Source: Burkholderiales bacterium LSUCC0115 (GTDB lineage: Bacteria; Pseudomonadota; Gammaproteobacteria; Burkholderiales; Burkholderiaceae_A). Taken from it: a DNA stretch of 64,000 bases. Below the pieces are notes generated by a model. That model had not been told where the DNA came from and did not search any database. It worked only from the letters and a program-made list of their open reading frames with translations. Within the stretch, counting starts at the first letter, position 1. Every line of letters begins with the position of its first letter. The stretch is from the NCBI GenBank assembly GCA_009646425.1, contig WJBW01000001.1:581475-645474 (forward strand), given 5' to 3'. This document shows positions 33,551 through 58,590 of this stretch, in pieces. A program made the position numbers and the translations under genes.

Positions 33551-35909
<2,359 letters not shown>

Positions 35910-40086: not shown

Positions 40087-40098
40087 AAAGTTTAAAAT

Positions 40099-41235: not shown

Positions 41236-41252
41236 TTTATCTCGGGATAAAG

Positions 41253-42944
41253 TTATGTAATATTATGTCCATCAAATGTTAGAACCTTAAATTCATCCCT
41301 AGCAATGTCGGGGGTGTGACTAACCATAATAACAACTTTTCCGTTTTTGGATATCCGTCCAAGACAGTCGAAGAGCCTGTTTTTAGACGCAACATCGAGG
41401 TGTGAGTCAGGCTCGTCAAGCAAATATATTGATCGGGAACTACTAAGATTCCGAGTCAATCTTAACAACTGGATTTGGCCACCAGATAATGAACCTTCCG
41501 CCGTATTGATAATAGTATCGTAACCCGACTTTAGTTTCAGAATCGTTGAGTGAATTCCGAGTTCTATGGCCATTTCATAGACTCGCTCTTTTGGAGTTTC
41601 CCCAAACCAAGTGAGATTCTCCAACACGCTTGCGGTAGGAAGTCTAGCGATCTGATCGAGAAACGATACCCGCCCCATTGTATCCCGAATACTCTTGTCA
41701 TTTGGGTACGTGATATTAACAGTACCCAATGTCGGCCTTAGATTGCCTGCAATTAGATTTAAAAGGGTCGATTTACCAACGCCATTCGGCCCTTGGATCA
41801 CATAGACGATCCCGGAATCAAAGACATACGAGACATTCTGAACCAAGGGAGTCAGGTCGCTGGGAAAACTGAATGATAAGTCACCCAGCTGAACCTTTGG
41901 GCTACCGAACAGGTCATCCGAACTTAAGTACCCGGTTAAATCATCGTCTAGCGGGCGGTGCTCGGACTCATTCTGCCCCGCCTCTAGTCTCTCCAAAAGG
42001 TCAAGATCCCTCTGGGCCGTCTTGAATGAGGTCCAACTCGAGATCAGCGTGTCAAATGGTGACGTAGCTCTTGCGACTAAAAAGCTTGCCGCGATCATAC
42101 CTCCCATAGTTAAGGAATGGTCAATAACGAGTATGGCGCCCAATGCTAAAACGAGAGAGCCAGATAGAACTCGGAATTGCTTTCCGACTTCACCGTAACC
42201 CTCGTCACCTTTAAGAAAAGCATAGTTATTTGAGTCATGGGCGGATTGTATGTGCATGAACCTGTTAATCGTACCCTCAACCATGCCATTAACTCTGATT
42301 GCCTCACTGTGACGTAAGTTGAAAAAGTTAAACTCATTTATACTCTTCTGCTCTATTGACAGGTCGCTTGCTGCCAAGGCCTTTCTCCTCGCGTAGAGCC
42401 TAACAATCAGAAACAAAACTCCAGAGAGTAGGACGGCAGCCAAGAATATGTAGGGATGGAGAAGGTAGAGTGCCACATAAAATATGGGAATATAAGGCAA
42501 CTCCAGAATCGGAACCAAGCCAACCGAACCAACCCAGTTTTTCAGATTTTGGATTGAGCTCTCTATTTCCACAGTGCTAATTCGATTGGGAAGATTATAA
42601 GAGTTCAGATAGTAGTGTAACGCCGGCCTTCTAAAGTGACTTTCGATGTATATTGAAAATCTAGATAAAATTCTAGCTTTGTATTTTTCAGCCAGATAAT
42701 TGATGAAATAGAAATACAGCGTGATTATAGATATAAGCAGGAGGCTAAGGGCATTAAGGCTGACCATAATTCGATCGAACACTTGAAGCATATATAGCGT
42801 GGGCACAACACTCAGAAATGTAGAGAACCCAGTTAATAAAAATAGGTAGAATCTATCCGATCGAGATCTTGCCAATATTTTTCTTGAAAATCGTAAATAC
42901 GCACCGATTTCATTATCAAAGAAACGGAGATTCATTGATGTCAT
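41253..42944 (-). CDS. Type I secretion ABC half-transporter (second of a pair)
   Basis: A 563-residue fused membrane/ATPase protein. Six membrane helices occupy about residues 25-310; the ATPase has Walker A GPNGVGKST near 383, signature SLSGGQIQ near 485, Walker B YLLDEPDSHLD near 507 and the switch His in MVSHTPD. No N-terminal peptidase domain. It resembles PrtD-like exporters of S-layer and RTX proteins. The upstream gene ends 1 base before this start and encodes a different half-transporter, so a heterodimer is likely. All catalytic motifs appear intact in this half. Confidence 0.9.
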   Translation of the reverse strand: MTSMNLRFFDNEIGAYLRFSRKILARSRSDRFYLFLLTGFSTFLSVVPTLYMLQVFDRIMVSLNALSLLLISIITLYFYFINYLAEKYKARILSRFSIYIESHFRRPALHYYLNSYNLPNRISTVEIESSIQNLKNWVGSVGLVPILELPYIPIFYVALYLLHPYIFLAAVLLSGVLFLIVRLYARRKALAASDLSIEQKSINEFNFFNLRHSEAIRVNGMVEGTINRFMHIQSAHDSNNYAFLKGDEGYGEVGKQFRVLSGSLVLALGAILVIDHSLTMGGMIAASFLVARATSPFDTLISSWTSFKTAQRDLDLLERLEAGQNESEHRPLDDDLTGYLSSDDLFGSPKVQLGDLSFSFPSDLTPLVQNVSYVFDSGIVYVIQGPNGVGKSTLLNLIAGNLRPTLGTVNITYPNDKSIRDTMGRVSFLDQIARLPTASVLENLTWFGETPKERVYEMAIELGIHSTILKLKSGYDTIINTAEGSLSGGQIQLLRLTRNLSSSRSIYLLDEPDSHLDVASKNRLFDCLGRISKNGKVVIMVSHTPDIARDEFKVLTFDGHNIT

Positions 42945-44624
42945 TTATTTCTTGCCGTCTTCCTGGAGTTTCTGTATAACCGCCGGTGTTCTACCGTAGC
43001 CCAATATAGAGCCACCTTGAAGTACCATCAACCATTCCGAAATCCTTATAAAATCTGAACTGTGCGAAGCCACTAAAATCGTTGTTTCACCTTCTCGCAT
43101 TAACTCAACAATCAGATCAATCAAGATCTTCTTATTTTGGGAATCTAAAGCAGAGTCCGGCTCATCAAGAATCAAATATCTCGGAGAGGTATACAAGGCC
43201 CGGGCTATGCAGAGCTTCTGCTGCTCTCCTATCGAGAGTATCGGCACCTCTGGAGACAACGCCGTGTGTATTCCGTTTTCTAATTTTCCAATTATCCGAT
43301 CTAGATTGAGCTTTTTTACTAGGTAGCTGATCCTTGTATCGTTAACCTCGGAAAATCGAGCTATATTCTGTAGAACATTTCCGTCGAAAATCGTCGGGTT
43401 TTGGCTGACGTAACCGATGTAATGACAACTTTCATTCGGGTCCCATTTCGAAGCCCGAATAGAGCTTAGCTGGACTTCACCAGATGTCGGTGCTAGCAGT
43501 CCGGTTGCAAGCTTTAACAAAGTGGACTTCCCCGATCCTGGGGGACCTACTACAGTGAGCAACTGACCCTTCTTCACTGTTAAAGATATATTAGTCAGAA
43601 TTCTTACGTTATTTCGAACTAAATTTACATTTTGAAAGGTTAACAGCCCGTCTGGTTTTGGCAATCCTTTCTGAAATTTTTGTTCGATCGAATATTCGTC
43701 AAACGTTCGTAGTCGCGAGATAGCCTCATATGTGTCATTCAGGCTCTTCCAGGAGCTTAGTAATTGGATTATTGGTCGAGATGCAAAGCCACCCAAAATT
43801 TTTGCGATAATAAGGTATGCCCCGAGCGCAGGGTGAAGGACGGAAGCAATCATCAAGGCAGCTCCAAGCCCCAACATCACCGAACCCTGAACAGTTGAGA
43901 CAAATTTAACTAGGGTGATTCCGCTAGCCTGAACATCCGAGGCTCGCAACAGCAGACTTTGACTATTTGATTGATCTCTTTCACTTCTTGCTGCCAGCGT
44001 TTCAAAAGGTACATTCGGACGTATCTCTTTTGCGCAGTAATATAGATCGGACAGAAACTGGCCATTCTTTGACATATCGGCGTAGACCTGTTTCATCAAA
44101 GGGGCCACCTTACGCTCAGTTGTAAATGACACTAGTGCTGTCAAAACGACGCCCAGTAATGTGATCCATCCCATGAACGGATGAATAAAAAACACAATAA
44201 CTATGAACAAAATGCTCATAGGTAAATCCAACAATGCCATCATCGGTTGCGAGGACAGAAATTTTTTGACTGCTTGAAAATCGTTTAGCGGGGTTGAAAT
44301 CAACCTTCCCGTCTCAGATGCATACTGATACGACAACCTCAACACATCCGAGAGAACCGCCTGCTCTAGAATTACCGATGCGGCAAAAAGTGTTCTTCTT
44401 CGTAAGACACTGACTAAGCTCTGGCAAACGAGGGCAACTAGGAGAGCGAAAGTGGCATAGAAAAGGTTGTGAATGCTTTCTGCACTTATAATTGGGCCGT
44501 AAACATCACGCATGTATATAATTGGTGCAAGCGAAAATAGGCCCACAACTATAGTCTGTAAATATATTACACGGACGAGCGATTTATTAGAAACAAAAAT
44601 CTTTTTTATTTTTTCAAAAATCAT
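42945..44624 (-). CDS. Type I secretion ABC half-transporter (first of a pair)
   Basis: A 559-residue half-transporter with six membrane helices (about residues 15-300) and an ATPase domain. Walker A is GPPGSGKST near 358, Walker B YLILDEPDSALD near 490 and the switch His is in VASHSSD, but the signature reads LSIGEQQ instead of LSGGQ. It shares fold but little obvious sequence with the partner encoded directly downstream. Pairs with one degenerate half are common in heterodimeric exporters. It is the third gene of the operon beginning at 47105. A TTTTTTATAAAAAA palindrome (44627-44640) fills the short gap before it. Confidence 0.9.
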   Translation of the reverse strand: MIFEKIKKIFVSNKSLVRVIYLQTIVVGLFSLAPIIYMRDVYGPIISAESIHNLFYATFALLVALVCQSLVSVLRRRTLFAASVILEQAVLSDVLRLSYQYASETGRLISTPLNDFQAVKKFLSSQPMMALLDLPMSILFIVIVFFIHPFMGWITLLGVVLTALVSFTTERKVAPLMKQVYADMSKNGQFLSDLYYCAKEIRPNVPFETLAARSERDQSNSQSLLLRASDVQASGITLVKFVSTVQGSVMLGLGAALMIASVLHPALGAYLIIAKILGGFASRPIIQLLSSWKSLNDTYEAISRLRTFDEYSIEQKFQKGLPKPDGLLTFQNVNLVRNNVRILTNISLTVKKGQLLTVVGPPGSGKSTLLKLATGLLAPTSGEVQLSSIRASKWDPNESCHYIGYVSQNPTIFDGNVLQNIARFSEVNDTRISYLVKKLNLDRIIGKLENGIHTALSPEVPILSIGEQQKLCIARALYTSPRYLILDEPDSALDSQNKKILIDLIVELMREGETTILVASHSSDFIRISEWLMVLQGGSILGYGRTPAVIQKLQEDGKK

Positions 44625-45671: not shown

Positions 45672-47105
45672 TTACATCGACGACAGTACACTACCGATAG
45701 GGCTGTTTCCAATTGTCGAACATTGCACGGCCGCACCAATATTTGACATAACGAAAGCCTCTTCCGGAGGGATATCCAGCGTTACAGCCGCTACATAAGT
45801 TGAAAGCATCGCATCACCAGCACCGGCGACATCCACCGGGTTCTGATTAAACGCCCTCAATTCAACTGGGTATCTAACGTTTTCCCTTCGGAACATCAAT
45901 GCACCATCCTTACCCAGTTTGAATACCAGAATCCGGCACTGAGTTTTTTCCATAAGGCGTGCTGCAACGCTCTGGATTCCAGACTTAAAATCATTCACTG
46001 CTAATCGAACCTCCCGCTCAGTTGCGAATATCAAATCCGCCCCCACGAATCGCGACACATCTCCGACCTGCGAAGATGACTGACTATCGGCAACAGTAAA
46101 CTTCCCTACTGACTCACAAAAACTTATTATGTTTGAGACCAGATTTGTCGGTAGAATACCATAATTGAAATCGGAAAATACAACCGCATCAGATTTTTTT
46201 ATGGAACTCCTTATCCGGGCGAGAACCTTCTCCTGTTGAATGTTATCAATATCATGGTTTGAAATATTGTTGACTCTTAGTAATGTCTTTCCGAGCGCTC
46301 TGTATCGAGTTTTTACTGTGCTATCCCTTGTGGGGTCGACCCAAGAAAAGAGATTTACGTCATTTTTGAGGTTAATTATCTCTTTCGTTTCCGTTTTGCT
46401 ATAGTTATCACCGAGCACAGTAAAAAAATCTACTTCGAGCCCTAGACTCGCAAGATGCCTAGCAACTATACCTGCACCACCAACAAATGTTTTTACCTTA
46501 TTGGGCTGGACGACGAGAGTGGGGTCCTCTTGCGACATCCCTAAAGGATGGCAATCAACATATCGATCTATTATTAGATCTCCAACAACCACAACACGTT
46601 TTTTTTTTGTATTACGCTTTTGGATTACTGCATTGAATTTTTTCGCCCGAGCTAACAGGTCTCTTTCGGAATACTTTCCAGAGGGATCTTTTAAATATAC
46701 TTGTCCCCCGTAATCGGCTAAACTTTCACTTCGCGACCTTTGGTCCAATATCTCATTGGTAGAGTCAGTGAAGAATATAAGTGAGCCTCCGTATTTTTTA
46801 AGCACCGAGGCTTCAATATTCTCCCCCCCCTCGAATTCCTTTCCCTTTACCACGATGTCGGGCTTCAGAGCGGCAAGTAGATTTCCTATGCCGCCTGGAG
46901 CCAGCTCAACTATCGAATCGGCAAGCTTTAATGAATCTATTAGAAATTGTCTGTCGACGTAAGGTACATCTGCACCATCAGAACCGTCACTTGTTAGCCC
47001 AATAATTAATCTGTCACATTTCGCTCTTGCGAATTGCAACATTCGGACATGCCCCGAGTGAACCATGTTAAAATTTCCGCTCACGAAGGCTACGGTTTTT
47101 TTCAT
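45672..47105 (-). CDS. HldE-like bifunctional nucleotidyltransferase-kinase with permuted domains
   Basis: A 477-residue fusion. Residues 1-140 are a cytidylyltransferase-type nucleotidyltransferase domain with the HxGH site in GNFNMVHSGHVRML and the family segment KPDIVVKGKEFEG. Residues 165-477 are a PfkB sugar kinase with VVVVGDLIIDRYV, FVGGAGIVARHLASLG and the signature DVAGAGDAMLSTYVAA carrying the catalytic Asp. In HldE/RfaE the kinase comes first; here the order is reversed. The expected role is phosphorylation and nucleotide activation of a heptose (or related sugar). First gene of the exporter operon, so sugar activation and secretion are co-expressed. Confidence 0.82.
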   Translation of the reverse strand: MKKTVAFVSGNFNMVHSGHVRMLQFARAKCDRLIIGLTSDGSDGADVPYVDRQFLIDSLKLADSIVELAPGGIGNLLAALKPDIVVKGKEFEGGENIEASVLKKYGGSLIFFTDSTNEILDQRSRSESLADYGGQVYLKDPSGKYSERDLLARAKKFNAVIQKRNTKKKRVVVVGDLIIDRYVDCHPLGMSQEDPTLVVQPNKVKTFVGGAGIVARHLASLGLEVDFFTVLGDNYSKTETKEIINLKNDVNLFSWVDPTRDSTVKTRYRALGKTLLRVNNISNHDIDNIQQEKVLARIRSSIKKSDAVVFSDFNYGILPTNLVSNIISFCESVGKFTVADSQSSSQVGDVSRFVGADLIFATEREVRLAVNDFKSGIQSVAARLMEKTQCRILVFKLGKDGALMFRRENVRYPVELRAFNQNPVDVAGAGDAMLSTYVAAVTLDIPPEEAFVMSNIGAAVQCSTIGNSPIGSVLSSM

Positions 47106-47120
47106 ACTCTGTCACCCCAA

Positions 47121-47831
47121 ATGAATTTCTTACTGCTCAGCGCTGGTCATGGATCCAGACTTCGTCCCATTACCAACACAACCCCCAAATGCCTCGTACC
47201 GGTCGGTGGAGTGCCCATCCTCGAGATTTGGATTGACAAAATATTCCGCCACTTCCCGGATTCCCAAGTTTTTGTTAACACTCATTACCTGTCGGAAAAA
47301 GTCCATACCGCCCTCTCCGCTCCAAAGTATGCATTCAAGCGAATCACAATTATCCACGAGCCGATTCTCCTTGGTACCGCTCAAACGATATTTCACGTGC
47401 TCGAAAGTGTCGCTGGGGATCTTTTTGTTGCACACGTAGATAACTACACGAATTTTGACCTACCGAATTTCGTCGATTTTTTTTATGGCCGTCCTTCTTG
47501 GTCTGACATCTCCCTGTTGACCTTCACCACCGCCCACTTCCAATCATGTGGAATTCTTGGCTTAGACCCCGAAAGTGGAAGAATTAGAGATTACTGGGAA
47601 AAATCCTCGACATTCAAAGGCGATCTGGCGAATGGGGCCGTTTTCATCATCTCCAAAACCATATCCAGTACCTTGCGGGGGTTGTGCTTAGATAAGAAAG
47701 ATTTTTGCGCGGACTGTATTCCTGTGCTGCTGCAACGTATCTCTGTATGGTATCATGAAGGGTTTCATATTGACATCGGCTCCCCTGAAAAACTTGCGGA
47801 AGCTGAGCGGCTAGCTTCAACTGCTCGATAG
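47121..47831 (+). CDS. Sugar-phosphate nucleotidyltransferase (HddC/ManC-like)
   Basis: A 236-residue nucleotidyltransferase. FLLLSAGHGSRLRPITNTTPKCLVPVGG is the loop binding the NTP phosphates (given here as the conserved run at the N-terminus), followed by LLGTAQTIFHV and the metal Asp in VAHVDNYT. It resembles enzymes making GDP-heptose or other GDP/UTP/CTP sugars. The ATG at 47121 is family-like, but no ribosome-binding site precedes it; in-frame alternatives exist at 47049 and 47034. The start is 15 bases from the divergent start of the kinase gene. Confidence 0.8.
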   Translation: MNFLLLSAGHGSRLRPITNTTPKCLVPVGGVPILEIWIDKIFRHFPDSQVFVNTHYLSEKVHTALSAPKYAFKRITIIHEPILLGTAQTIFHVLESVAGDLFVAHVDNYTNFDLPNFVDFFYGRPSWSDISLLTFTTAHFQSCGILGLDPESGRIRDYWEKSSTFKGDLANGAVFIISKTISSTLRGLCLDKKDFCADCIPVLLQRISVWYHEGFHIDIGSPEKLAEAERLASTAR

Positions 47832-47932: not shown

Positions 47933-48871
47933 ATGAAGATCCTTGTTACTGGAGCCTGTGGTTATAAGGGCTCTGTTCTTACCCCGAAACTCTTAGAGCG
48001 AGGCCATGAGGTTGTTGCATTCGATATCATGTGGTTCGGAAACCATCTCGCTCCTCATCCAAAACTAACGATTGTTAAGGGCGACGTTCGACAGCTCGAT
48101 CAGGTTCCACTCGATGGGGTGGACGCAGTGGTTCACCTGAGCTCGGTCGCCAACGATCCATGTAGCGATCTCGACCCCAAGTTGACCTGGGAAGTCAGTT
48201 GTTTGGCGACCATGCAGCTTGCGGATGCTTGCGCTCGAAGAAAGATATCGCGATTCATTTATGCTTCTTCAGGCAGTGTCTATGGTGTGTCGGAGGAGCC
48301 AAAAGTTGTAGAAGATGCCCTGCTTACTCCGCTATCCGAGTACAACAAGACCAAGATGGTTGCGGAGAGGGTGCTCTTAAGCTACTCCGAAGTTATGAAC
48401 ATTCAAATTGTTCGCCCAGCAACCGTCTGCGGCCTGTCACAAAGGATGCGGCTTGATGTCGCCGTCAATCTACTAACCATGCAAGCCGCCAAAAATGGGG
48501 TTATGACTGTCTTGGGTGGCAAGCAGACAAGGCCAAACATCCATATCGATGACATTACTGACCTATATGTTTACTTATTAGATAACCCGAAATACGTTGG
48601 TGTCTTCAACGCTGGTTTCGAGAACATATCGATACTTGACATAGCCTCGTTAATTCAAAGCAGGACCGGAGCGGAAATAAAAATGATGCCCTCCAACGAC
48701 CCTCGATCCTACAGACTTGACTCGACAAAACTCCTCAATACTGGCTTCAGACCCAAGAAAAATGTGGAGACAGCGATAGACGAGATGCTGGATGCAATCA
48801 AGACTGGAGCTCTTATTGATAGTGATCAATGGTACAACTTAAAATGGATGCAAAGGGGAGTCGAGAAGTGA
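47933..48871 (+). CDS. NAD-dependent epimerase/dehydratase family protein
   Basis: A 312-residue extended SDR. The cofactor motif is GACGYKGSVLTPKLLERGH, the Ser/Tyr/Lys triad sits in IYASSGSVYG and EYNKTKMVAE, and RPNIHIDDITDLYVYLL is the usual substrate-side motif. It would epimerise, dehydrate or reduce a nucleotide sugar. The ATG at 47933 gives the normal start. The stop overlaps the next start codon (GTGA), so it is coupled with the GmhA-like isomerase. Together with the preceding nucleotidyltransferase it fits a heptose or deoxysugar route. Confidence 0.85.
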   Translation: MKILVTGACGYKGSVLTPKLLERGHEVVAFDIMWFGNHLAPHPKLTIVKGDVRQLDQVPLDGVDAVVHLSSVANDPCSDLDPKLTWEVSCLATMQLADACARRKISRFIYASSGSVYGVSEEPKVVEDALLTPLSEYNKTKMVAERVLLSYSEVMNIQIVRPATVCGLSQRMRLDVAVNLLTMQAAKNGVMTVLGGKQTRPNIHIDDITDLYVYLLDNPKYVGVFNAGFENISILDIASLIQSRTGAEIKMMPSNDPRSYRLDSTKLLNTGFRPKKNVETAIDEMLDAIKTGALIDSDQWYNLKWMQRGVEK

Positions 48872-49443
48872 CCGAGAAAAATGCTCCAGCCGTCTATGTT
48901 TCAGAGCTAGTCAACACAATCAGGAATTTTGATTGGGATGAGCTGCAATCGGTCACAGACCGATTGTTAACCGCCTCATCTTCAGGGAGGCGCATCTTTC
49001 TAATAGGCAATGGCGGCAGCGCGGGAAATTCAGAGCATCTGGCTAATGATTTCACGTACGGTGCATTCAAATCCTTCGGGCGGGGTCTTAATGTCCATTC
49101 TCTTAGCTCAAATTCCTCGGTCATCACCTGTCTTGCCAACGACATTGGCTACGAGAATATTTATTCCCATCAAATCATGGCTTACGCCGCATCGGGTGAC
49201 CTATTGGTTTGTTTTAGTGGTAGCGGAAATTCTCAAAATATAGTCAACGCAATTGAATCCTCGAAAAAAATCGGCCTCTATTCAATTGGAATTTTCGGTT
49301 ATGACGGTGGAATAGCAGCAAAACATGTTGATTTTTTGGTACACATCAAAAGCTTCGATATGCAGGTTTGTGAAGACATGCAACTAATCATCGGGCATTA
49401 CATTATGAAGTCAATTTATTCAAAAGTAGGAGCACATAGCTAA
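48868..49443 (+). CDS. GmhA-like phosphosugar isomerase (SIS domain)
   Basis: A 191-residue SIS protein resembling sedoheptulose-7-phosphate isomerase. FLIGNGGSAGNSEHLANDF near residue 40, CFSGSGNSQNIV near 115 and CEDMQLIIGHYI near the end carry the substrate- and metal-binding residues of GmhA. It converts sedoheptulose-7-phosphate to D-glycero-D-manno-heptose-7-phosphate, the substrate for the HldE-like kinase domain. GTG at 48868, with a GGGGAG seven bases upstream and overlapping the preceding stop, is preferred over ATG codons at 48829 and 48844. Confidence 0.87.
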   Translation: MTEKNAPAVYVSELVNTIRNFDWDELQSVTDRLLTASSSGRRIFLIGNGGSAGNSEHLANDFTYGAFKSFGRGLNVHSLSSNSSVITCLANDIGYENIYSHQIMAYAASGDLLVCFSGSGNSQNIVNAIESSKKIGLYSIGIFGYDGGIAAKHVDFLVHIKSFDMQVCEDMQLIIGHYIMKSIYSKVGAHS

Positions 49444-50151
49444 ATGACTAATTTAAGTGAACGGATCTTGGCGTTCGAACGTAAATTGCAGGTGCACATG
49501 CACGAGGTTTTTTGTCCAACCCACCTGTCTATCGGTCAAGAGCATGTCGCTGAGGAAATGGCGGCAGAGATGATCAAGGAAGATTGGCTCTTTTCCACCC
49601 ACAGGAACCACCATCACTACCTTGCGAAGGGGGGTGACGAGCAAAAGCTCTGGGATGAAATCATGGGCTTGGAGTCTGGGCTAAATGGGGGGTTTGCAGG
49701 ATCTCAAGGTATCACTGATAGATCGATTAATTTTCATGCCAGTGCTATTGTTGGCGGGTTAATCGGAGTAGCGGCAGGTGCTGCGTTTTCTCTCAGAAAT
49801 TCGAAGAGTAATGCAATTTCCATCTCTTGCATCGGTGACGCCGCATCTGAGCAAGGCGTATTTTGGGAAGTTTTGAACTTCGCAGTTCTGTACAATCTCC
49901 CACTTTGTATAATCATGGAAAACAATGGTAAGTCTGTTGATGCCCATATTTCTGAGCGCCAGGTTGGGGAAATTTCTCCGAAGGTGGCGGCCTTCGGAGT
50001 CAAGACATTCCAATCGATTGGTGAGGCAATAAGATTCACTCGGGATAACAGATTGCCTTCTTTTGTCGAGGTGAAGGTGAAGCTTAAATGTGCTCACTTG
50101 AACATGGCGACTATGCTGGATTTGTGCGATCAATCCGAACCTACATCCTAA
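49444..50151 (+). CDS. TPP-dependent E1 alpha-like subunit
   Basis: A 235-residue thiamine-diphosphate enzyme subunit of the pyruvate-dehydrogenase E1 alpha type. The TPP/metal-binding motif runs from GDAASEQGVFWE to IIMENNG (GD-x26-NN) near residues 132-162; HRNHHHYLAKGG and ASAIVGGLIGVAAGAA precede it. It is shorter than the usual 320-400 residues, lacking the C-terminal part. The start codon directly abuts the upstream stop. Its neighbour encodes the matching beta-like (pyrimidine-binding) subunit, so together they form one split TPP enzyme. No lipoyl E2 gene is near, so a classic dehydrogenase complex is unlikely. Confidence 0.82.
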   Translation: MTNLSERILAFERKLQVHMHEVFCPTHLSIGQEHVAEEMAAEMIKEDWLFSTHRNHHHYLAKGGDEQKLWDEIMGLESGLNGGFAGSQGITDRSINFHASAIVGGLIGVAAGAAFSLRNSKSNAISISCIGDAASEQGVFWEVLNFAVLYNLPLCIIMENNGKSVDAHISERQVGEISPKVAAFGVKTFQSIGEAIRFTRDNRLPSFVEVKVKLKCAHLNMATMLDLCDQSEPTS

Positions 50152-50180
50152 TGTGTCGCCCTTAATTCACGAGTGAGAAT

Positions 50181-50798
50181 ATGAAGACCTTTGCATCTGA
50201 AATTAATAGAGCTATAGATGAGTTGATCATGAATGACAAAGATGTCATTGTTGGAGGACAACTCGTTCGCTATGGAGTGGCCGGACTCACTACAGGCCTT
50301 TTTGATAAATACCCAAGTAATTTTATAACTTACCCCGTTGCAGAGTCTTTAATGAATTCTAGTGCCATGGGATTGGCCTTGACCGGTAAGCGGGTGATTA
50401 TGATTCATGTTCGCATTGACTTTCTCGCGAGTGGAATGTGTGCCCTTGTAAACCACATTCCAATTTGGGCAAAAAAGGGTTTCAAGCTCCCTATCACTCT
50501 AATCTGCCAGGTTGGCCGAGGGATGGGTCAAGGAGCCCAACATAGCAAAGATCTATCGCATTGGTTCAAGAATTTTGAAGGCTGGAATGTTGTGGTACCT
50601 ACAAATCCATCAGAGGCCCATGACTTTCTGGTCGATTCCGTAAACGGTGATAAGCCGACACTCTATGTAATCTACCGAGAACTCTTCGATAGTGATGAGC
50701 GTAAAGTGATTCCGCAGCCCACCAAGGTTACCCTGTGCGGTGCTAGCCGTAGACACGAGGCTGAATATTATGCCAAACGTGACGCCGGACTTCTTTAA
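50181..50798 (+). CDS. TPP-dependent E1 beta-like subunit, lacking the C-terminal domain
   Basis: A 205-residue transketolase-type pyrimidine-binding domain. The proton-relay Glu is in TYPVAESLMNS near residue 55, and CQVGRGMGQGAQHSKDLSHWF and VVVPTNPSEAHDFL match E1 beta subunits. The C-terminal transketolase domain (about 120 residues) of normal E1 beta proteins is absent; the frame ends cleanly after a short basic stretch (SRRHEAEYYAKRD). An AGTGAGAA stands before the ATG. With the preceding gene it should form a minimal alpha2beta2 TPP enzyme. In a sugar operon its job may be ketol or acyl transfer to a sugar, which is inference. Confidence 0.8.
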   Translation: MKTFASEINRAIDELIMNDKDVIVGGQLVRYGVAGLTTGLFDKYPSNFITYPVAESLMNSSAMGLALTGKRVIMIHVRIDFLASGMCALVNHIPIWAKKGFKLPITLICQVGRGMGQGAQHSKDLSHWFKNFEGWNVVVPTNPSEAHDFLVDSVNGDKPTLYVIYRELFDSDERKVIPQPTKVTLCGASRRHEAEYYAKRDAGLL

Positions 50799-50811: not shown

Positions 50812-51750
50812 TTGAATTTAAATGTCTATTACGATACGCAGGAAGCTCCGGTAACGTTTGATTTTGCAACATATTTAGTTACCGCGAATTGCGCCCGTGT
50901 ATTTGCGGGTTGCGAAGGCATGAATCTTCACATTCATGCTCATAAGTTTCGCAAGAAGACTATACGTGACCAGTCGACGCCCGAAGGGGAGATTCGCTGG
51001 AGGGTCAACCACATCCTCAAGGGGGTTCCAGCGCTTTTGCCAATGGTCCGGGACGTGCACATCTACTCCTCGCCCGTGATGAGCATAGATTTCCCAATGT
51101 TCCCACCTGGATACCCACAAAACAAGTCGAAGGATCTCGTGATCCCTTATCTTAGTGATACTCTCTTGAAGTTTAAGGACAAGGTCGATCCAGATTGTCT
51201 ACGGCCTTACAGGCCTCCAGACGAAGCCGTTAACATCGTATCAAGACTGAGGTCCGTTGGTAAGTCGTCACAGAGAGGCTACTTTACAATCACGCTTCGA
51301 ACGTCTAGAACTCAAACCGATCGAAATTCTAATCTTGACTCATGGTTTTCTGTCTATGAGCTACTAATCGCCCGGGGCTTCTCTGTTTATGTGGTTCCGG
51401 ATTATGAAGATCTAACATCACATCGGAAATACTTGGACTATCCCTGGGAGACGTTCGAGATTGCAGCGTTTGACCACGGCATTCGGCTCGCGCTTTATGC
51501 CGGTGCAATTCAGAATCTTTGCGTACTAAATGGAGTGATGGTTCCTCTTTTCCACTCCCCTTATCCGTATATCGTATTTAAACCCATAGTCGAGTCGGTG
51601 CACCAGACAAGGCTGGACTGGTTTCAGCGTATTTTCGGCATAGATCAGGATGACAGCTTTTGGTGGTCATCTGGTGACTCCCAACGTATTGAGTGGGTCG
51701 AGGATACTGTAGAAAATGTCTCTAACTCATTAGGTGCCTATTTAACATGA
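50812..51750 (+). CDS. Hypothetical protein (312 aa)
   Basis: I do not recognise the family. The protein begins with TTG at 50812, 13 bases after the TPP gene, and ends overlapping the methyltransferase-like gene by four bases (ATGA). It shows alternating strands and helices (ISTLR-like YFTITLRTSR, then RGFSVYVVPDYEDL), and later GAIQNLCVLNGVMVPLFHSPYPYIVF, which recall the two-domain GT-B fold, including a late NGV/PLF region such as a donor site. No signal peptide or membrane segment. A transferase acting in the same glycan route is possible. Confidence 0.6.
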   Translation: MNLNVYYDTQEAPVTFDFATYLVTANCARVFAGCEGMNLHIHAHKFRKKTIRDQSTPEGEIRWRVNHILKGVPALLPMVRDVHIYSSPVMSIDFPMFPPGYPQNKSKDLVIPYLSDTLLKFKDKVDPDCLRPYRPPDEAVNIVSRLRSVGKSSQRGYFTITLRTSRTQTDRNSNLDSWFSVYELLIARGFSVYVVPDYEDLTSHRKYLDYPWETFEIAAFDHGIRLALYAGAIQNLCVLNGVMVPLFHSPYPYIVFKPIVESVHQTRLDWFQRIFGIDQDDSFWWSSGDSQRIEWVEDTVENVSNSLGAYLT

Positions 51751-52463
51751 ACACTTTCGATATAAGCAGGGAGTCTCTTTCTCGTCTCTTTTGGATGAAG
51801 GTGGCCGAGGATCACCTCCGTGCCTTCAACATTGAATATCCTGACTACTTTAAAAAGCTTCATGAAATGCGCCGACTAATCGCGGATGCGGAATTCAAAA
51901 CTGGTAGTGTGCTGACAGGCAGCGCGATTACACTTGCGATGGCTTCCGCCCACTTCTCACCAGCGTCTATCGCCGAGGTGGGAACCTTCATTGGACGGTC
52001 TACCTACAGCATGGCTTGTGGCTCCATGCTTTACAGCAGAATGGAGCAAGAGGTAAGCCTTGTAACCTGTGACTTTTCTAATGACATCCCTATTCCGATT
52101 GATATCGCTGGATTCAAGCTTAGCCAATACCCTAAAAAGTCCTCTACACAGATGTTCACAGACCTAGTGAGCAAGCAGGTAGTACTCGATTTTGTTTATA
52201 TTGATGGTAGGTTAGACATCGCAGACTTAGACCTATTGTCGAAAATCACGAGCGATCGTACTGTCATAGCCTTGGATGACTATGAGGGAAACGAAAAAGG
52301 GGTGGATAATGCAGCACTCATTCAAAATCACACTATTTCTCAGAAGAGGCTATTAATTTATCCTGCTACAAGAGACGTACTGTACAGCCACTACGATTTG
52401 AGTGGTTACTCGACAACGGCTCTGTTCATACCTCAGTCGTTGCTCAGGCTCACCAGGCAGTAG
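51747..52463 (+). CDS. Class I SAM-dependent methyltransferase-like protein
   Basis: A 238-residue protein. IAEVGTFIGRSTYSMACG near residues 72-90 resembles the SAM-binding loop of Methyltransf_24-type enzymes, and LDFVYIDGRLDIADLDLL near 150 resembles the following acidic motif; VIALDDYEGNEKG comes next. O-methylation of a sugar is the usual role of such genes in glycan clusters. It overlaps the preceding gene by 4 bases and the convergent kinase gene by 14. A catalytically inactive relative cannot be excluded. Confidence 0.7.
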   Translation: MNTFDISRESLSRLFWMKVAEDHLRAFNIEYPDYFKKLHEMRRLIADAEFKTGSVLTGSAITLAMASAHFSPASIAEVGTFIGRSTYSMACGSMLYSRMEQEVSLVTCDFSNDIPIPIDIAGFKLSQYPKKSSTQMFTDLVSKQVVLDFVYIDGRLDIADLDLLSKITSDRTVIALDDYEGNEKGVDNAALIQNHTISQKRLLIYPATRDVLYSHYDLSGYSTTALFIPQSLLRLTRQ

Positions 52464-52977
52464 TCCGGTTTTTAGAGAGGAGTACCTTGAGAATACGCTG
52501 AATCGGGGTGAGACGGCTCGGCCGGTGGTTTCTGACTACTTGGTCGACATAGCCATATCGCTGGAAGCTCTCGACTTGAGATATCGCTAGTTTTATCTTT
52601 CCAAAGTGTCCGCGTCTTCTATGGACTCTTCGGATACGTTGTGATTCTGGTATCACTAGTTGGATAATTTTAGAATACTTGAAAATTCTCTTTACTCGAG
52701 CCCGGTCCAATTTGTTCAAAAGTGAGCAGGCGCATACTACACCTCTCGTGGTGTAATCATTTTTCTCGAGGCTAGTAACAGTAGCACACACGCTTCGGAC
52801 ATATCTTGATCTCTCGCTCTGGCTTAGTCCTCGACCAAGTTTCATTTTCATTAGATCCCGAGCGCGGTGACAGTGATCACCGTCTAAATAATGCAGTTTT
52901 AAGAGCCTGGCTATTTCGGCAGCAATATATGACTTACCAACTCCTGACATGCCTGTTATAAAAATTAAATTTCTCAT
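52450..52977 (-). CDS. Gluconokinase/APS kinase-like P-loop kinase
   Basis: A 175-residue P-loop kinase. Walker A is ITGMSGVGKSYIA near residues 7-19; LDGDHCHRARDLMKMKLGRGLSQSERSRYV and VVCACSLLN match gluconate kinase (GntK) features, where DGD and KM..G are substrate-site motifs. The C-terminal third is unusually basic. It overlaps the preceding 6-phosphogluconate dehydrogenase-like gene by 4 bases, a pairing that suggests gluconate or another aldonate as substrate. APS kinase is the alternative. Last gene of the nine-gene minus-strand run. Confidence 0.75.
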   Translation of the reverse strand: MRNLIFITGMSGVGKSYIAAEIARLLKLHYLDGDHCHRARDLMKMKLGRGLSQSERSRYVRSVCATVTSLEKNDYTTRGVVCACSLLNKLDRARVKRIFKYSKIIQLVIPESQRIRRVHRRRGHFGKIKLAISQVESFQRYGYVDQVVRNHRPSRLTPIQRILKVLLSKNRTTAW

Positions 52978-54239
52978 GTTTTTTCATGACCGCCAAATCT
53001 GTTTCTGGCTATACTGATTGGAAAATTCGTTATAATTCCGTTATCTTCAGCGCAGGCACTAATTGCGCTCCAAAAAATGGGAGGGATGTACCAAAAACAG
53101 CCTGGCTGAAGACAGGATAAAATACCAAATAATTCATCTTTGGCTCCATGGTAAAGCTCCCGGGAAGCATCGTCCGCATTATGACTTCTTGACATCAATT
53201 CGTTAATCGCACGCCAATAGTCACCTCGTATTACACTAAACCCGGAATAAACTTGGAATATTTCCTTTAGCTTTTGGGTACTGTTGTGACTTATGTGCCC
53301 CAAAATTTCAATAGCCTCATGTATAGAGTAGAGCCTAACGGCGTCTATAATTCGCAAAAATAGATCGCCCAATCCGACCTGGCTTTGAGCTCTTAGGGGC
53401 GTGACAGCCTCACAATAAGTTTTTCTCGGCGCGAATCGTCCATTCAAAGCACATGTTGGTAACCTAATGGGTATTCGATTGTCAAAACAATATTCGATGA
53501 GTGATCGTACTGAGCCATTCTCCGCAATATCGTGGCGCTTTTTTGAACCCAACCGATCACCGTAGTTCTCCTCTAGGTTCGCGAACATAATGTCGGCGAG
53601 GTAGGACCGATACCGTGGAGACATGAGTGAACGTATAAAATCGTGTGGCAACGATCCGATTGCAGCGGAAAGCCCCTCAAAGCAGGAGGACAACAAGGAC
53701 AGTTCGATATACTCCAACGAATTATGAACGCTTTTGACTAGGTGGCCGTTTGGATTCGGTCCACAGTCAACTATTCGCCGAGGATCCCCTTTACAAAGTG
53801 CAAGGAAAATCTTCTCCACGCAGGGATCCTCTGTATATTGATCATGAAATATCGACGCGCCGTTTGCGTAAATAGACGTCCCACCCGAAATGCCAGCTCC
53901 GATGTATTCAATGCCTTTAAGAGACAGTTGCTTGGCCCGGCCTGAAGACTTCTGAAAGTGGGCATTCGAGAAATCGATGACAATAAATCTTTGACCATGA
54001 AATCGGTCTGCTGTAACCCCGATCTCCTGAACTAAACTGTCTGTTGCATTATCGGGCGCAAACAAACAAATATAAAGAGGGTTGTTCGGATTGGGTACTG
54101 ATGAGGCTATTGCACTCGTAATCGACCTGAAATCAGCCAAGGGTGCAGCATTGTCAATTGAAATCGGGTTCATATCCCTCATTAACTCAACAGCTTGAGA
54201 ACCCATTTTTCCAATTCCAACAATTAGAGGGCTATTCAT
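52974..54239 (-). CDS. Divergent 6-phosphogluconate dehydrogenase-like protein
   Basis: A 421-residue beta-hydroxyacid dehydrogenase. The Rossmann start is VGIGKMGSQAVELM; IVIDFSNAHFQKS, GIEYIGAGISGGTSIYANGAS and GHLVKSVHNSLEYIELSL follow. These match 6PGDH segments, including the catalytic Lys/Asn (K-x-x-H-N near residue 168) and the downstream Glu. It is shorter than the 470-residue enzyme and the C-terminal region diverges strongly, so the substrate may be a modified aldonate phosphate. It overlaps genes on both sides (kinase, 4 bases; lactonase-like, 8 bases). Confidence 0.75.
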   Translation of the reverse strand: MNSPLIVGIGKMGSQAVELMRDMNPISIDNAAPLADFRSITSAIASSVPNPNNPLYICLFAPDNATDSLVQEIGVTADRFHGQRFIVIDFSNAHFQKSSGRAKQLSLKGIEYIGAGISGGTSIYANGASIFHDQYTEDPCVEKIFLALCKGDPRRIVDCGPNPNGHLVKSVHNSLEYIELSLLSSCFEGLSAAIGSLPHDFIRSLMSPRYRSYLADIMFANLEENYGDRLGSKKRHDIAENGSVRSLIEYCFDNRIPIRLPTCALNGRFAPRKTYCEAVTPLRAQSQVGLGDLFLRIIDAVRLYSIHEAIEILGHISHNSTQKLKEIFQVYSGFSVIRGDYWRAINELMSRSHNADDASRELYHGAKDELFGILSCLQPGCFWYIPPIFWSAISACAEDNGIITNFPISIARNRFGGHEKT

Positions 54240-55059
54240 AATCGATTCCTAGTAGACGGCCGGAGTATTGAGAAGTGGTCGCGCTGCCCACGGCTGTCGC
54301 TATGAGCATGCGACATCGAGGGATTCCGTCCACTCGGATATTAGAAAGGGTAACAGACGTAGCGTGTTGCACTGGTAGCTGATACCTCTTCGCGATAACT
54401 CCACTTGCTACGTCGAATGCAAAGACATCGCCATCGAAGAAGCTCGGAATAAGTATTGTGTCTCCAAGCCCACGGGCAATGCCGTCGGGTCCCTTAATTA
54501 TCCCGTCAAGATCTATCTGACGTCTTAATGCTAAATGCCCAGGTTCCTTATCATATTCGTAGATGACATTCGTCCCACTATCGGACACAAATAGCCGACG
54601 GCCTCTAATTATGAGCCCGTTGCCAACAACCAGGAAATTTTTTAAAAGCTTCCTTATACGATTATTGCAAAACTCATACAGCGAACCCTTATTGCTTCGC
54701 TCTTCAACATCCATACTCGATATATAAAGCACCCCAGAGTGGAAAAGTGAATCATTAAATGATTCACCCTTATTTAAATCGGAACTCTCAATAAGACACT
54801 CGAATTTGCAAGACAGAAAGGAGTATGAGTATACTGAATTATTTGATGTGATTAGACATGTGCCGCTGGAGAGTGGATTAATAGAGGTTGGTGAAAACCT
54901 AACCGGAACAACATCGGTTTGTGATCCGAAAATTCGAATAATATTTCTCTCCACTTTGTCTACAAAGTAGATTTCACCCAAATTCCCGATGCGGACTGAC
55001 TCTAGAAAACGACCCTTGTAACTCGACTGAAATACTATTTCAGGCTCTTCTATTTTCAT
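54232..55059 (-). CDS. SMP-30/gluconolactonase-like beta-propeller
   Basis: A 275-residue protein with the spacing of metal ligands seen in regucalcin/gluconolactonase: Glu in FLESV near residue 17, Asn in VGNGLI near 140, Asp in GPDGIARG near 188, plus the substrate-side FNDSLF near 98 and VSDSGTNVIYEYD. It would hydrolyse a sugar lactone to an aldonate. The ATG at 55059 is preferred over an earlier one, which would extend the overlap with the GT2 gene from 20 to 62 bases. Its neighbours encode an aldonate kinase-like and a 6PGDH-like protein, giving a plausible three-step route. Confidence 0.68.
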   Translation of the reverse strand: MKIEEPEIVFQSSYKGRFLESVRIGNLGEIYFVDKVERNIIRIFGSQTDVVPVRFSPTSINPLSSGTCLITSNNSVYSYSFLSCKFECLIESSDLNKGESFNDSLFHSGVLYISSMDVEERSNKGSLYEFCNNRIRKLLKNFLVVGNGLIIRGRRLFVSDSGTNVIYEYDKEPGHLALRRQIDLDGIIKGPDGIARGLGDTILIPSFFDGDVFAFDVASGVIAKRYQLPVQHATSVTLSNIRVDGIPRCRMLIATAVGSATTSQYSGRLLGIDYE

Positions 55060-56338
55060 GAAAAATGGCTGGAAGTGACTGGATCTCAACCGAAAAGTCA
55101 TCCGCTGGAAAAATATTCAGGACTCTCTCAGTGATTTTCTTAATGACGGGTTTGTTTATGTTTGCAATTAGTATATATATACGGTGATTCCGATTTGATT
55201 CACAAATCTCAAAAAATTGCCCCAAGGTTACATTTCCATTAATCTCAGAAAAGTTATCGTCAATCACATAGATCTTCTCATTACCAATTTTCAAAAGATA
55301 ACTTCTCAATACTTCACTTAGGGCACCAGAACAGTAGATTGCGATTGTTGGTAACGGTTCAATCAGAGTCGACTGCATCCGCCGAAGGGAACGGGACAAT
55401 CTCCCCATTAGCGCAGACAGCGATAATAGGAGTGAAACTACCTGGCAAAGGCTCACCTTCGTTTTAAATAGTGTAAACATAAGCCGAGTCATTGTCTTGA
55501 CGTTTCCGAGTCTATCTCTTGGATTGGTCGTCACAAATGCGGGGAGCCTTGATAGTGCTAACGTCTCCAAGTATTCAACTCGATCTTGGACATATCTCTT
55601 AATGTTTGTATCAGTCCGTAGATGGGTATCCAAATCCTGTAAGGCCTGCTTTACTCGAATCACGTCAATCACGGCACTAGCACTATTTATATTTTTAGTG
55701 GACTGGGGATGAAATTTATACCCATATCGAAATAGGTTTGTCAGGTTTAGATCTTCAAGTTTTGATAAAAGCTCGGTAGAGAACATTAAATCCTCTACTA
55801 CTCTGGTATCAACAAACCGCATCCGAGCGACATTCAGCCACCGCCTATTTATAATCAGTCCAGTGCAGTGATTCAAACACGATTCAGTCGAAATTATTCG
55901 TCGAACATATTCCTCGACAGTGACCCGTTCACATCGGTTGGAATGTCTTCGCTCAAAAGAAGGTGTTGGATGGCTAAATTCACCCACCAGCAGTGAATGA
56001 TCTTTAGTTCTCAGCAGGTCAAGGAGTTTGTACGCATCAACCCCAATATCGTCGTCATCGTCAACGAAGGTTACGTACCTTCCTGTCGAGACTTCCAGTC
56101 CAATATTTCTCGCAGCTCCAGGTCCTGCACCACCACGGACGCCCGAATATTCAATCTTTACGCCCTGCCCCAGTAGCGATGGATCTATTCGTGATGAAAA
56201 GTCGATCTTTCTACCATCGAAGATAATTACAATCTCGATTTGGTCCTCGAGACACTCGAAGTTACGGAGAATTTGACCCGCTATGCGCGCTGGATCTCTT
56301 ACCGTGGGAACTACAAATGACAGCAGACTACTGTTCAC
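55040..56338 (-). CDS. Family 2 glycosyltransferase with C-terminal extension
   Basis: A 432-residue protein. The GT-A domain (residues 1-250) starts SFVVPTVRDPARI, has GAGPGAARNIGLEVSTGRYVTFVDDDDD with the metal-binding DDD near residues 92-99, and MFSTELLSKL further on. Residues 330-432 form a separate part with IAIYCSGALSEVLRSYLLK and EKIYVIDDNF, like the Rossmann-type domain of the radical SAM protein encoded upstream. Donor and acceptor unknown. It overlaps both neighbours (11 and 20 bases). Confidence 0.82.
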   Translation of the reverse strand: MNSSLLSFVVPTVRDPARIAGQILRNFECLEDQIEIVIIFDGRKIDFSSRIDPSLLGQGVKIEYSGVRGGAGPGAARNIGLEVSTGRYVTFVDDDDDIGVDAYKLLDLLRTKDHSLLVGEFSHPTPSFERRHSNRCERVTVEEYVRRIISTESCLNHCTGLIINRRWLNVARMRFVDTRVVEDLMFSTELLSKLEDLNLTNLFRYGYKFHPQSTKNINSASAVIDVIRVKQALQDLDTHLRTDTNIKRYVQDRVEYLETLALSRLPAFVTTNPRDRLGNVKTMTRLMFTLFKTKVSLCQVVSLLLSLSALMGRLSRSLRRMQSTLIEPLPTIAIYCSGALSEVLRSYLLKIGNEKIYVIDDNFSEINGNVTLGQFFEICESNRNHRIYILIANINKPVIKKITERVLNIFPADDFSVEIQSLPAIFHENRRA

Positions 56339-57569
56339 GGACTATTGGTATCTTGATTACGTGCTTTGTCTGTACACCCGGAATCACCCTTGGTTGCATG
56401 TAATCTCTACCGAGACAATATGCACATGAGTCGAGGTGGGGTCGTCCGAAATACCATGACTTGAACGAAGACCGAAGCGAGGCTGAGTCTTGGAAATCTT
56501 CGAGATCAAGGTACTCTGCCTGTGAAACATCAAATGCATCTAGGTTTATCGCGTTTGCTGAAAAGGGGCAATGGTAGATACGACCGTGCAGAATTGTGAG
56601 AGCATCGTTCACGCAGCAAGCATCAAACATCTGTGACAGTTCGTTCGGATTTAGATTGTTCTTAACGATCCTCGCCGAATCGGTCCAGTTCTGGGGCTTG
56701 TGTGCGAAAAATTTTATTTTCTCAGCCTCCAATGTTTCACAGACACGCTTTAAATTCCGAGAATGCTCATCGTAGTCTGTAATCTCGACTACGATCTTAG
56801 GGTCCCGAAGGGCTTCAAGGACATCCTGTCGGGGTACTATCGTACCGTTTGTATATACAGTAACGTGGCCTACCTTTGGGTTTAAACCCAGATAATTTAA
56901 TACACTAGCCAAATCGCGTACCAAAAAGGGCTCTCCGCCTATAACACGCGCGTCCGCGAGATGATCAATGGCGCCCACGAACGTGTCCAAGTTCTTCAGA
57001 AGTTGCCCAATATCTGAATCAACTGGCTTCTGGTAGTACTGCATCAAATTCGAACAGTCCACACATTTCATAGTGCACTTTTCTGTTACCTGAACGTCTA
57101 ATGCGTTCACGTAAACTTCACCTTGAAAACCCTGTACCTGGAGTAGTTTGCTCTTGTGTGTATGCGATCTTCTCTGAACCTCCTCGAAAGACATTAGCCC
57201 CACGAACTCTTCCGGGTGAGCCTCCTCGAGAATACGGACCATAGAGCTTACAATTACACCTGGCTCATTTAGAACAGGGCCCTTCATGATAGTGCGAAAA
57301 TAATTGCTTGTTATAATAACCAAAGTGCCAGAATCCACCATCGAGGTATCAGAACTTGAATATATCGGATATCCCTCGAAGGTCTTACCGGTTCGCGAAT
57401 CGTCATCATCAAAAAAACCGTCAATCTTCAAGTCTTTAGCACTAAGCGTTGCTAGTGCTATCCTCGCGTAGCTACTAACCGCGTCACCCGCTCCGTAAAG
57501 ATACAGTTTCGCACCATTCTTTCGGTGCTGCCTTATTTGTTCAATTGTGAGGGAGCTAATACTAATCAT
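56328..57569 (-). CDS. Radical SAM protein with N-terminal Rossmann-like domain
   Basis: A 413-residue protein. Residues 1-110 form a Rossmann-like domain (KLYLYGAGDAVSSYARIAL, FFDDDDSRTG) similar to sensor or sugar-binding modules in polysaccharide genes. The radical SAM core follows with the 4Fe-4S motif EKCTMKCVDCSN (C-x3-C-x2-C, near 167), then VIGGEPFLVRDL. Additional cysteines (CC near 290, YHCPFS, CAYC near 395) suggest an auxiliary cluster of SPASM type. The likely task is a radical modification (epimerisation, dehydration or cross-link) of a glycan or of the exported protein. ATG at 57569 overlaps the upstream stop by 8 bases. Confidence 0.78.
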   Translation of the reverse strand: MISISSLTIEQIRQHRKNGAKLYLYGAGDAVSSYARIALATLSAKDLKIDGFFDDDDSRTGKTFEGYPIYSSSDTSMVDSGTLVIITSNYFRTIMKGPVLNEPGVIVSSMVRILEEAHPEEFVGLMSFEEVQRRSHTHKSKLLQVQGFQGEVYVNALDVQVTEKCTMKCVDCSNLMQYYQKPVDSDIGQLLKNLDTFVGAIDHLADARVIGGEPFLVRDLASVLNYLGLNPKVGHVTVYTNGTIVPRQDVLEALRDPKIVVEITDYDEHSRNLKRVCETLEAEKIKFFAHKPQNWTDSARIVKNNLNPNELSQMFDACCVNDALTILHGRIYHCPFSANAINLDAFDVSQAEYLDLEDFQDSASLRSSFKSWYFGRPHLDSCAYCLGRDYMQPRVIPGVQTKHVIKIPIVREQ

Positions 57570-58590
57570 TTGGATAGTCGGCCTTGTATAAATTTGAGAC
57601 GTCAAAGTGATAGGAAATCAGTTCTTTTAAGTCAATTATGGTTGTTCGCTTAGAGGACCGTCCAAATATACTTTCACACTTTTCTGAAATCCAAACAGGG
57701 GAGGCCCCGCGGACATATCCAAGCTGCAATTCCGCTAATTCAAAGCGGGGGAAAAAGGTATCAGACCGATCTGTGCTCTTCAAACTCCCAAAGTTTCCTC
57801 TCAGCGTAGAAAAGACAACCACAAAGTCGGAGTCGCGTATCTGATTGTCTAGATATTCAAATTCCGCCAAATTGAACTCCCTCATAACACGCGTTTTAAG
57901 GGAGGTACCTTTTTGCGCCTCCATTCGTAGGTAGCCCAGGCTTACCAAAACTCCCACTGCATTTATTAGAGAGCCGCTCCAATGATAGAAAAAATCTTGA
58001 AATATCACGACCGAATCAGTCATTAGACACGGGAAGAAGTTCTTTAGTATTGGTCGAAAGTCCTCGTAAGACTTCGGAGCATCGATATGTAATAAATGAA
58101 TTGGCTGGTTGGGCGGTGTCGCGCTTCTCAGTAGAGTCTGGTGTAAGGATACCTGTGTTCCCGACAAGTAAAAATCCGTGATTTTCCTGAAGTCAACAAA
58201 CTCTTCTTCGTGAACCAACAGTTCAGCTTTGTCGATATTTTTGACCATATCTAATAGGGGGTTAATGAACCAACCCCGCTTCGAAGCCTTGAATGCGTCA
58301 TATCCAATAACCTCAATGGTTTCGTCTTGGTTTGCCGCATTCCTGTAACGCTCAACGGCCTTTGCCATTAAGAACGTGCTTAATCCAAAGAATACTCCCA
58401 GATCTACTATGCAGCCTTTAGAAACAGTTTGATGTTTGATATATGCGACACAGGCTTCGGTTACCAGTTGAATCCGCTCGGAGACCTCGAGCATTCCTGG
58501 AGGAGTGCCAGTTAAACTGACAATCTCCTTTACATCTTTGACCTCGAACAAGTTGATCTTATCTTGATTCAATGCAATTTTTCCGATCAA
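57562..58590 (-). CDS. SAM-dependent methyltransferase-like protein
   Basis: A 342-residue protein. CIVDLGVFFGLSTFLMAKAVE near residues 65-85 is the SAM-binding loop type of Methyltransf_24/macrocin-like enzymes; EVIGYDAFKAS and LLHIDAPKSYEDFRPIL then VVIFQDFFYHWSG complete the core. A C-terminal part of about 120 residues has no clear match. Methylation of a sugar or lipid is likely. The start overlaps the end of the Nudix gene by 32 bases; a start at 58494 is less likely because it would remove part of the N-terminal helix. Confidence 0.72.
   Translation of the reverse strand: MIGKIALNQDKINLFEVKDVKEIVSLTGTPPGMLEVSERIQLVTEACVAYIKHQTVSKGCIVDLGVFFGLSTFLMAKAVERYRNAANQDETIEVIGYDAFKASKRGWFINPLLDMVKNIDKAELLVHEEEFVDFRKITDFYLSGTQVSLHQTLLRSATPPNQPIHLLHIDAPKSYEDFRPILKNFFPCLMTDSVVIFQDFFYHWSGSLINAVGVLVSLGYLRMEAQKGTSLKTRVMREFNLAEFEYLDNQIRDSDFVVVFSTLRGNFGSLKSTDRSDTFFPRFELAELQLGYVRGASPVWISEKCESIFGRSSKRTTIIDLKELISYHFDVSNLYKADYPND

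Follow-up and report, generated by a model that had tools for sequence, protein, structure and literature searches.

A candidate domain-minimal, E1-like thiamine diphosphate enzyme pair in a surface-glycan gene cassette of a Burkholderiales bacterium

E1-like alpha/beta pairs that add a two-carbon branch to sugars are known or have been proposed for avilamycin, paulomycin, everninomicin, aldgamycin and kibdelomycin. C2 branching is a proposal for avilamycin and paulomycin; for aldgamycin it is backed by feeding and knockout experiments, and KbDH-alpha/beta takes pyruvate as donor and ketones as acceptors in vitro. For the split-gene transketolases of miharamycin and amipurimycin, a sugar ketol transfer has been proposed. 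Binding and activation of ThDP need a PP and a PYR domain, and the ThDP motif is GDX25-30N (PMC2831816).

Here we describe an E1-like alpha/beta pair of Burkholderiales bacterium LSUCC0115 that lies in a sugar cluster without an E2, as in the alphaKADH2 sugar-branching carboligases. "The window" is the whole stretch of DNA analysed, 64,000 nucleotides. A preliminary description of it suggested that the pair's reaction could be new, a suggestion that we drop because E1-like alpha/beta C2 branching is already known or proposed in antibiotic sugars.

Domains and conservation of the pair

The two genes are:

49444..50151, + strand: TPP enzyme alpha-like subunit (PP domain), 235 aa; Pfam E1_dh 1.4e-22
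50181..50798, + strand: TPP enzyme beta-like subunit (PYR domain only), 205 aa; Pfam Transket_pyr 1.8e-16

Both ORFs, already given as alpha-like (235 residues) and beta-like (205 residues) in the preliminary description, were confirmed, with Pfam scores well above chance. The alpha ATG lies immediately 3′ of the stop codon of a GmhA-like gene, and the protein matches E1_dh with 80.4 bits (cut-off 22) over profile positions 16-162 of 300; a weaker match to DXP_synthase_N is also present. The beta protein matches Transket_pyr with 60.8 bits (cut-off 27) over positions 9-169 of 174, essentially the complete domain. The Pfam search of the pair found no Transketolase_C, a domain present in full-length relatives in the same alignment, and no decarboxylase-superfamily (TPP_enzyme) domain in alpha or beta. 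The top NCBIfam matches, both far under their cut-offs, are PDH E1 alpha and PDH E1 beta. Also missing is the alpha tail of E1, and beta ends about 35 residues past the PYR domain; when the C-terminal ends of full-length relatives were used as tblastn queries, the missing parts did not turn up in any frame near the genes.

Within this reduced frame the TPP-binding motif and the proton-relay Glu are kept, as first described: alpha carries G131-D132-(27)-N160 (GDX27N, seen as GDAASEQG...ENN), within the GDX25-30N range, and alignments with full-length relatives identify the catalytic Glu as beta E55. The same alignments show that the E1 histidines are retained at alpha H27 (in the motif PTHLSIGQE), H56 (in THRNHHHYLAKGG) and H218 and at beta H121. 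The C-terminal H218 aligns with an E1 loop that we take to be the one bearing the phosphorylation site in mitochondrial enzymes (phosphorylation loop A), and alpha ends just past the equivalent of this loop. The preliminary description had named missing active-site residues as grounds for giving up its reading; in the sequence alignments, the motif residues are all present.

The minimal pair also occurs, with the same partner genes, in two genomes from another genus of the same family (G212 and G213), with alpha of 233-241 aa and beta of 219-225 aa and with identities to the window pair of 66% and 69-71%. Between these two genomes dN is 0.10 for alpha and 0.13 for beta, and silent change has reached saturation (pS 0.85 and 0.78); by these sequence measures, purifying selection on the pair is strong. 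The low dN with saturated silent sites, together with the tblastn result, ruled out decay or a frameshift that conceals the missing domains. Measured against E1, both subunits are truncated, as stated earlier; since their short form is conserved between genera, however, it is better regarded as a stable minimal one. It appears to be narrowly distributed, since it was found in only three of 26 family genomes (it was absent from the other 23 examined) and no further minimal beta turned up in samples of 369 genomes of the class and 398 of the phylum. A contig scan for relatives gave one full-length example only, with an E2.

Loss of the C-terminal parts, and the long stem of the minimal clade in the tree below (about two changes per column), are what one might expect of a decayed, inactive remnant or a non-catalytic scaffold. 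We consider this very improbable, given that the motif residues are all kept, that similar lengths and partner genes are found in another genus and that selection appears so strongly purifying. The long stem does mean that the function of the minimal clade may have shifted. The pair is probably a stripped-down, working thiamine-dependent enzyme, as judged from its conserved residues and domains.

Two other origins were considered and rejected: a phage origin, as a viral-contig scan gave no relative of the pair and phage records give only distant matches, the annotated ones acetoin-type; and a defence system, as PADLOC gave no match.

Fold, relatives and E2 partners

AlphaFold2 single-chain models are of good quality, with mean pLDDT values of 88.3 (alpha) and 86.8 (beta). 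In VIA-align comparisons, alpha gave Z 26.2 to 1umb_C (231 residues, 2.0 A) and 19.7 to the split transketolase 6yak, and beta gave Z 26.4 to 1um9_B (177 residues, 2.0 A), about 21 to DXS and 19.8 to the split transketolase. Both halves are thus predicted to fold as E1 and to be nearer to E1 than to transketolase (Z 26 vs 18-20), and hhalign gave beta a probability of only 33% against the genome's own transketolase. Alpha and beta would assemble as a heteromeric ThDP enzyme made of PP and PYR domains alone.

Minimal two-subunit ThDP enzymes do exist among decarboxylases: ComDE and RhiEF, like the window pair, have only PP and PYR, on two chains. They lend some plausibility to the idea that the pair acts on a glycan precursor by itself, either decarboxylating a 2-oxo acid or, as a ThDP lyase, cleaving a sugar. 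However, ComDE and RhiEF belong to the decarboxylase superfamily, whereas the window pair, with its E1_dh and Transket_pyr matches, is of the E1/transketolase type, and an aldehyde-using partner is not evident in the window cassette; we regard this alternative as improbable.

In a tree of alpha plus beta, the minimal pair forms a clade (support 100/100) that groups with a full-length pair found in a different family of the same order (L032; 100/99), and the branch that parts the sugar-linked side, including the minimal pair, from all E2-linked E1 has support of 99/96. A second, quicker tree that included named plasmid records gave the same split (SH-aLRT 100), so that the phylogeny against E1 proposed in the preliminary description sets the pair apart from E2-linked E1 both times. 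Gene neighbourhoods (within about 10 kb) follow this division for 24 sugar-linked clade loci and 28 others: GmhA is nearby in 10/24 vs 0/28 (Fisher p 1e-4), GmhA or a heptose kinase in 12/24 vs 0/28 (p 1e-5), and E2 in 0/24 vs 13/28 (p 6e-5), and these p values remain < 0.003 when the minimal rows and near-duplicates are left out. All sugar-linked rows share beta H76 (H76-x-R78), R78, G116 and R166 and alpha R172, residues that E2-linked rows lack or carry only rarely. By hhalign, beta R78 falls on the position of a DXS Tyr, presumably an active-site residue. The Streptomyces griseofuscus plasmid pSGRIFU1 also carries an H-x-R E1-like pair (L134 10983-13029), in a natural-product cluster with a condensation domain, ketosynthases and regulators. 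A match in S. chartreusis (H124) was rejected as a sugar-linked relative, being catabolic instead.

The C-terminal domain of E1-beta holds the E2-binding domain (1w85) and is the usual E2 docking site. The preliminary description had reported no lipoyl E2 nearby, and neither a lipoyl E2 nor an E3 was found within the window or within 20 kb to either side of it. Being homologous to E1 alpha and beta, the pair could still be a genuine 2-oxo acid dehydrogenase E1 that borrows the E2 and E3 of the genome's SucA-SucB-Lpd operon, but this operon is about 600 kb from the pair, beta has no C-terminal domain, the tree separates the pair from E2-linked E1 and no E2 or E3 is within reach; we give this proposal almost no credence. 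With no E2, an E2-free sugar clade and the gene context described below, a dehydrogenase role is unlikely and a C2 carboligase acting on a sugar is likely.

The cassette and the proposed reaction

The pair is surrounded by the following genes:

45672..47105, - strand: HldE-like protein, adenylyltransferase (8-90) then PfkB kinase (169-466); PF01467, PF00294; TIGR02198 178 bits, under cut-off
47034..47831, + strand: sugar-1-phosphate nucleotidyltransferase (NTPT); PF00483 1.7e-17; linked in L061, L063, L093 and L129
47888..48871, + strand: NAD-dependent sugar epimerase/dehydratase (SDR); PF01370 6.9e-36; overlaps the GmhA-like gene
48829..49443, + strand: GmhA-like SIS-domain ketose-phosphate isomerase; SIS_2; TIGR00441 109 bits, under the model's cut-off
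50812..51750, + strand: conserved cassette protein, putatively a glycosyltransferase or another glycan protein; homologues in L060 and L061 at 42% identity; no Pfam match
51747..52463, + strand: conserved cassette protein, putatively methyltransferase-like; homologues in L060 and L061 at 36-39% identity; no Pfam match
52450..52977, - strand: gluconokinase-like (GntK); TIGR01313 78 bits, under cut-off
52974..54239, - strand: 6-phosphogluconate dehydrogenase-like (Gnd), divergent; PF03446 5.6e-9
54232..55101, - strand: SMP-30/gluconolactonase-like; PF08450 4.8e-17
56328..57605, - strand: radical SAM-like; PF04055 26.4 bits (cut-off 29.5); 46-47% identical in L060 and L061
58559..59026, - strand: NUDIX hydrolase; PF00293 8e-14; NUDIX also in L061, L129, L135 and L136

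The cassette also includes a GT2, and the genome has another GmhA-like gene outside this region. The SDR is 63% identical in three sister-genome cassettes. The HldE-like protein is conserved in L061 and L063, and its swapped domain order is also seen in L129. Alignment with the Gnd of L061 shows that the Gnd-like protein retains the GISGG and GHLVKSVHNSLEY motifs; no other Gnd was found in the genome, and 21 of the 26 family genomes have no such Gnd. The lactonase/Gnd/GntK-like trio recurs (window 52450-55101 on the - strand, L061 11613-14403, L129 7718-10455, L131 8370-11095), beside HldE and NTPT, and GntK-like and Gnd-like genes are linked in L061, L129, L130, L131 and L132.

Farther out in the same glycan region, 34076-35909 (- strand) encodes SIS-CBS (KdsD-like) and DAHP/KDO8P synthase-family proteins, probably for Kdo biosynthesis. 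On one side of the cassette, 38701-44624 looks from its sequence like a type I secretion set. On the other side, a large Gly/Ala/Thr/Ser-rich ORF, S-layer/RTX-like and with no Pfam match, runs from 61348-63912 (- strand) off the window end into L089 1-995.

One sister locus of the same family (L063, genome G218) has HldE, NTPT, SDR and GmhA as in the window, with full-length E1alpha and E1beta in place of the minimal pair, and this shared gene set suggests that the two forms do the same job. Full-length pairs also occur on an Azospirillum oryzae plasmid (L135: SDR, PfkB, SIS, SDR, E1alpha, E1beta, two DegT, radical SAM, NUDIX) and on Solidesulfovibrio magneticus pDMC1 (L136: radical SAM, NUDIX, kinase, E1alpha, E1beta, SDR, DegT, NTPT, SIS). 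In clade, signature residues and partner genes these three resemble the minimal pair, but Transketolase_C and the alpha tail, both missing from the minimal pair, are retained in them. Other split ThDP pairs were seen as well: a second, distinct one (about 280 + 305 aa) is found with SDRs and HddA-like GHMP kinases in genomes of this family (L060 911-2639, L064 8779-10535, L065 9731-11460, L066 8002-9731, L067 8250-9976, L096 17942-19650), and what appears to be a split transketolase (286 + 317 aa) lies upstream of lactonase-Gnd-GntK in the G214 glycan locus (L131 1531-3357).

The cassette adjoins flagellin genes (Flagellin_C) in G212, G213 and G218 (L061 3-3203, L060 16410-20000, L063 2-1387), so in the sister genomes it resembles a glycosylation island for flagellin; flagellin genes also stand beside it in L128 and L129. 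Nothing in the window is similar to the sister-genome flagellins, and here the product of the Gly/Ala/Thr/Ser-rich ORF may be the glycosylated protein. The surface-protein targets are thus possibly flagellin in the sister genera and an S-layer-like protein in this genome.

With no E2, the beta C-terminal docking domain gone, an E2-free, sugar-linked clade and sugar-activation neighbours, the best reading is the C-C bond formation on a sugar that the preliminary description had favoured, the reaction itself being inferred. Without the beta C-terminal domain and an E2 the usual acyl hand-over would be impossible, so transfer of the C2 intermediate to another carbonyl would be its natural fate. 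The ThDP ylide would attack a 2-oxo acid, pyruvate being the first choice; CO2 would be released and the two-carbon unit would stay bound, then be added to a sugar carbonyl, most likely that of an NDP-keto-sugar from the SDR. The resulting branched or extended sugar would be placed by glycosyltransferases in the glycan of an exported surface protein or in LPS. That the pair is a C2 carboligase of some type on a sugar seems to us probable; that it is of the 2-oxo-acid (acetyl) type in particular falls a little short of an even chance. Against the carboligase reading, only 12 of the 24 clade members lie beside GmhA or a heptose kinase, the GntK/Gnd/lactonase trio is left without explanation, and the long stem of the minimal clade allows for a shift in function.

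The trio fits better with a transketolase-like enzyme that would transfer a ketol (C2) unit between a ketose phosphate donor and an aldose phosphate acceptor, yielding a ketose phosphate that the GmhA-like isomerase would convert to an aldose for the HldE-like kinase and the nucleotidyltransferase, with Gnd, GntK and the lactonase supplying pentulose phosphate. This would suit the GmhA-like gene immediately upstream, the GmhA and heptose kinase genes at other clade loci, the recurrence of lactonase-Gnd-GntK beside HldE/NTPT and, as a lead, the additional conserved Arg and His of the PYR domain, R78 among them. The window gene set also resembles the lincomycin octose route. Against this, family and fold are those of E1 rather than TK (NCBIfam matches; Z scores above), the genome's normal transketolase can provide sedoheptulose 7-phosphate, and GmhA is not nearby in about half of the clade. 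The ordinary transketolase and the lack of GmhA near more than half of the clade lead us to favour the carboligase over a transketolase role upstream of GmhA, which we consider rather unlikely. We tentatively propose, as a whole that may well prove wrong in one part or another, that a minimal PP+PYR pair, active alone, makes a new sugar, branched or extended, with which surface proteins are glycosylated, within a widespread E1-like/GmhA/heptose-kinase module that is undescribed in the papers searched.

Comparison with described systems

If the pair is active, the transketolase C-terminal domain is dispensable in this class, which would offer a compact biocatalyst for C-C bond formation, and the recurring gene module would point to unknown higher-carbon or branched sugars. 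Activity would also extend E1-like sugar carboligation beyond antibiotics to surface glycans, where the type described so far is the single-chain YerE. A domain-minimal E1-type pair in a surface-glycan island is not described in the open papers searched; in the same open literature we found no description of the full-length sugar-linked E1/GmhA/HldE-HddA module and nothing on the whole cassette gene set.

YerE and ErwE carry out ThDP-dependent C-branching of an NDP-keto-sugar in LPS but, unlike the window pair, are single chains of the decarboxylase superfamily. The split-gene transketolases (6yak/6yaj; those of miharamycin and amipurimycin) are, like the window pair, two-chain ThDP enzymes, with longer chains (about 300 aa) and a lower structural match (Z 19.7-19.8). 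By description, AviB1/AviB2, Pau11/Pau12, EvdU5/EvdS3 and KbDH-alpha/beta (alphaKADH2) are most like our pair in being encoded by separate alpha and beta genes within sugar clusters. Pau11 and Pau12, again compared by description, are full-size proteins of 325 and 345 aa with an antibiotic role, as against 235 and 205 aa and a surface-glycan island here. The chemistry and the E1-like type are thus known, AviB, Pau and KbDH being compared by description; what is new at this locus is the domain-minimal architecture and the surface-glycan context.
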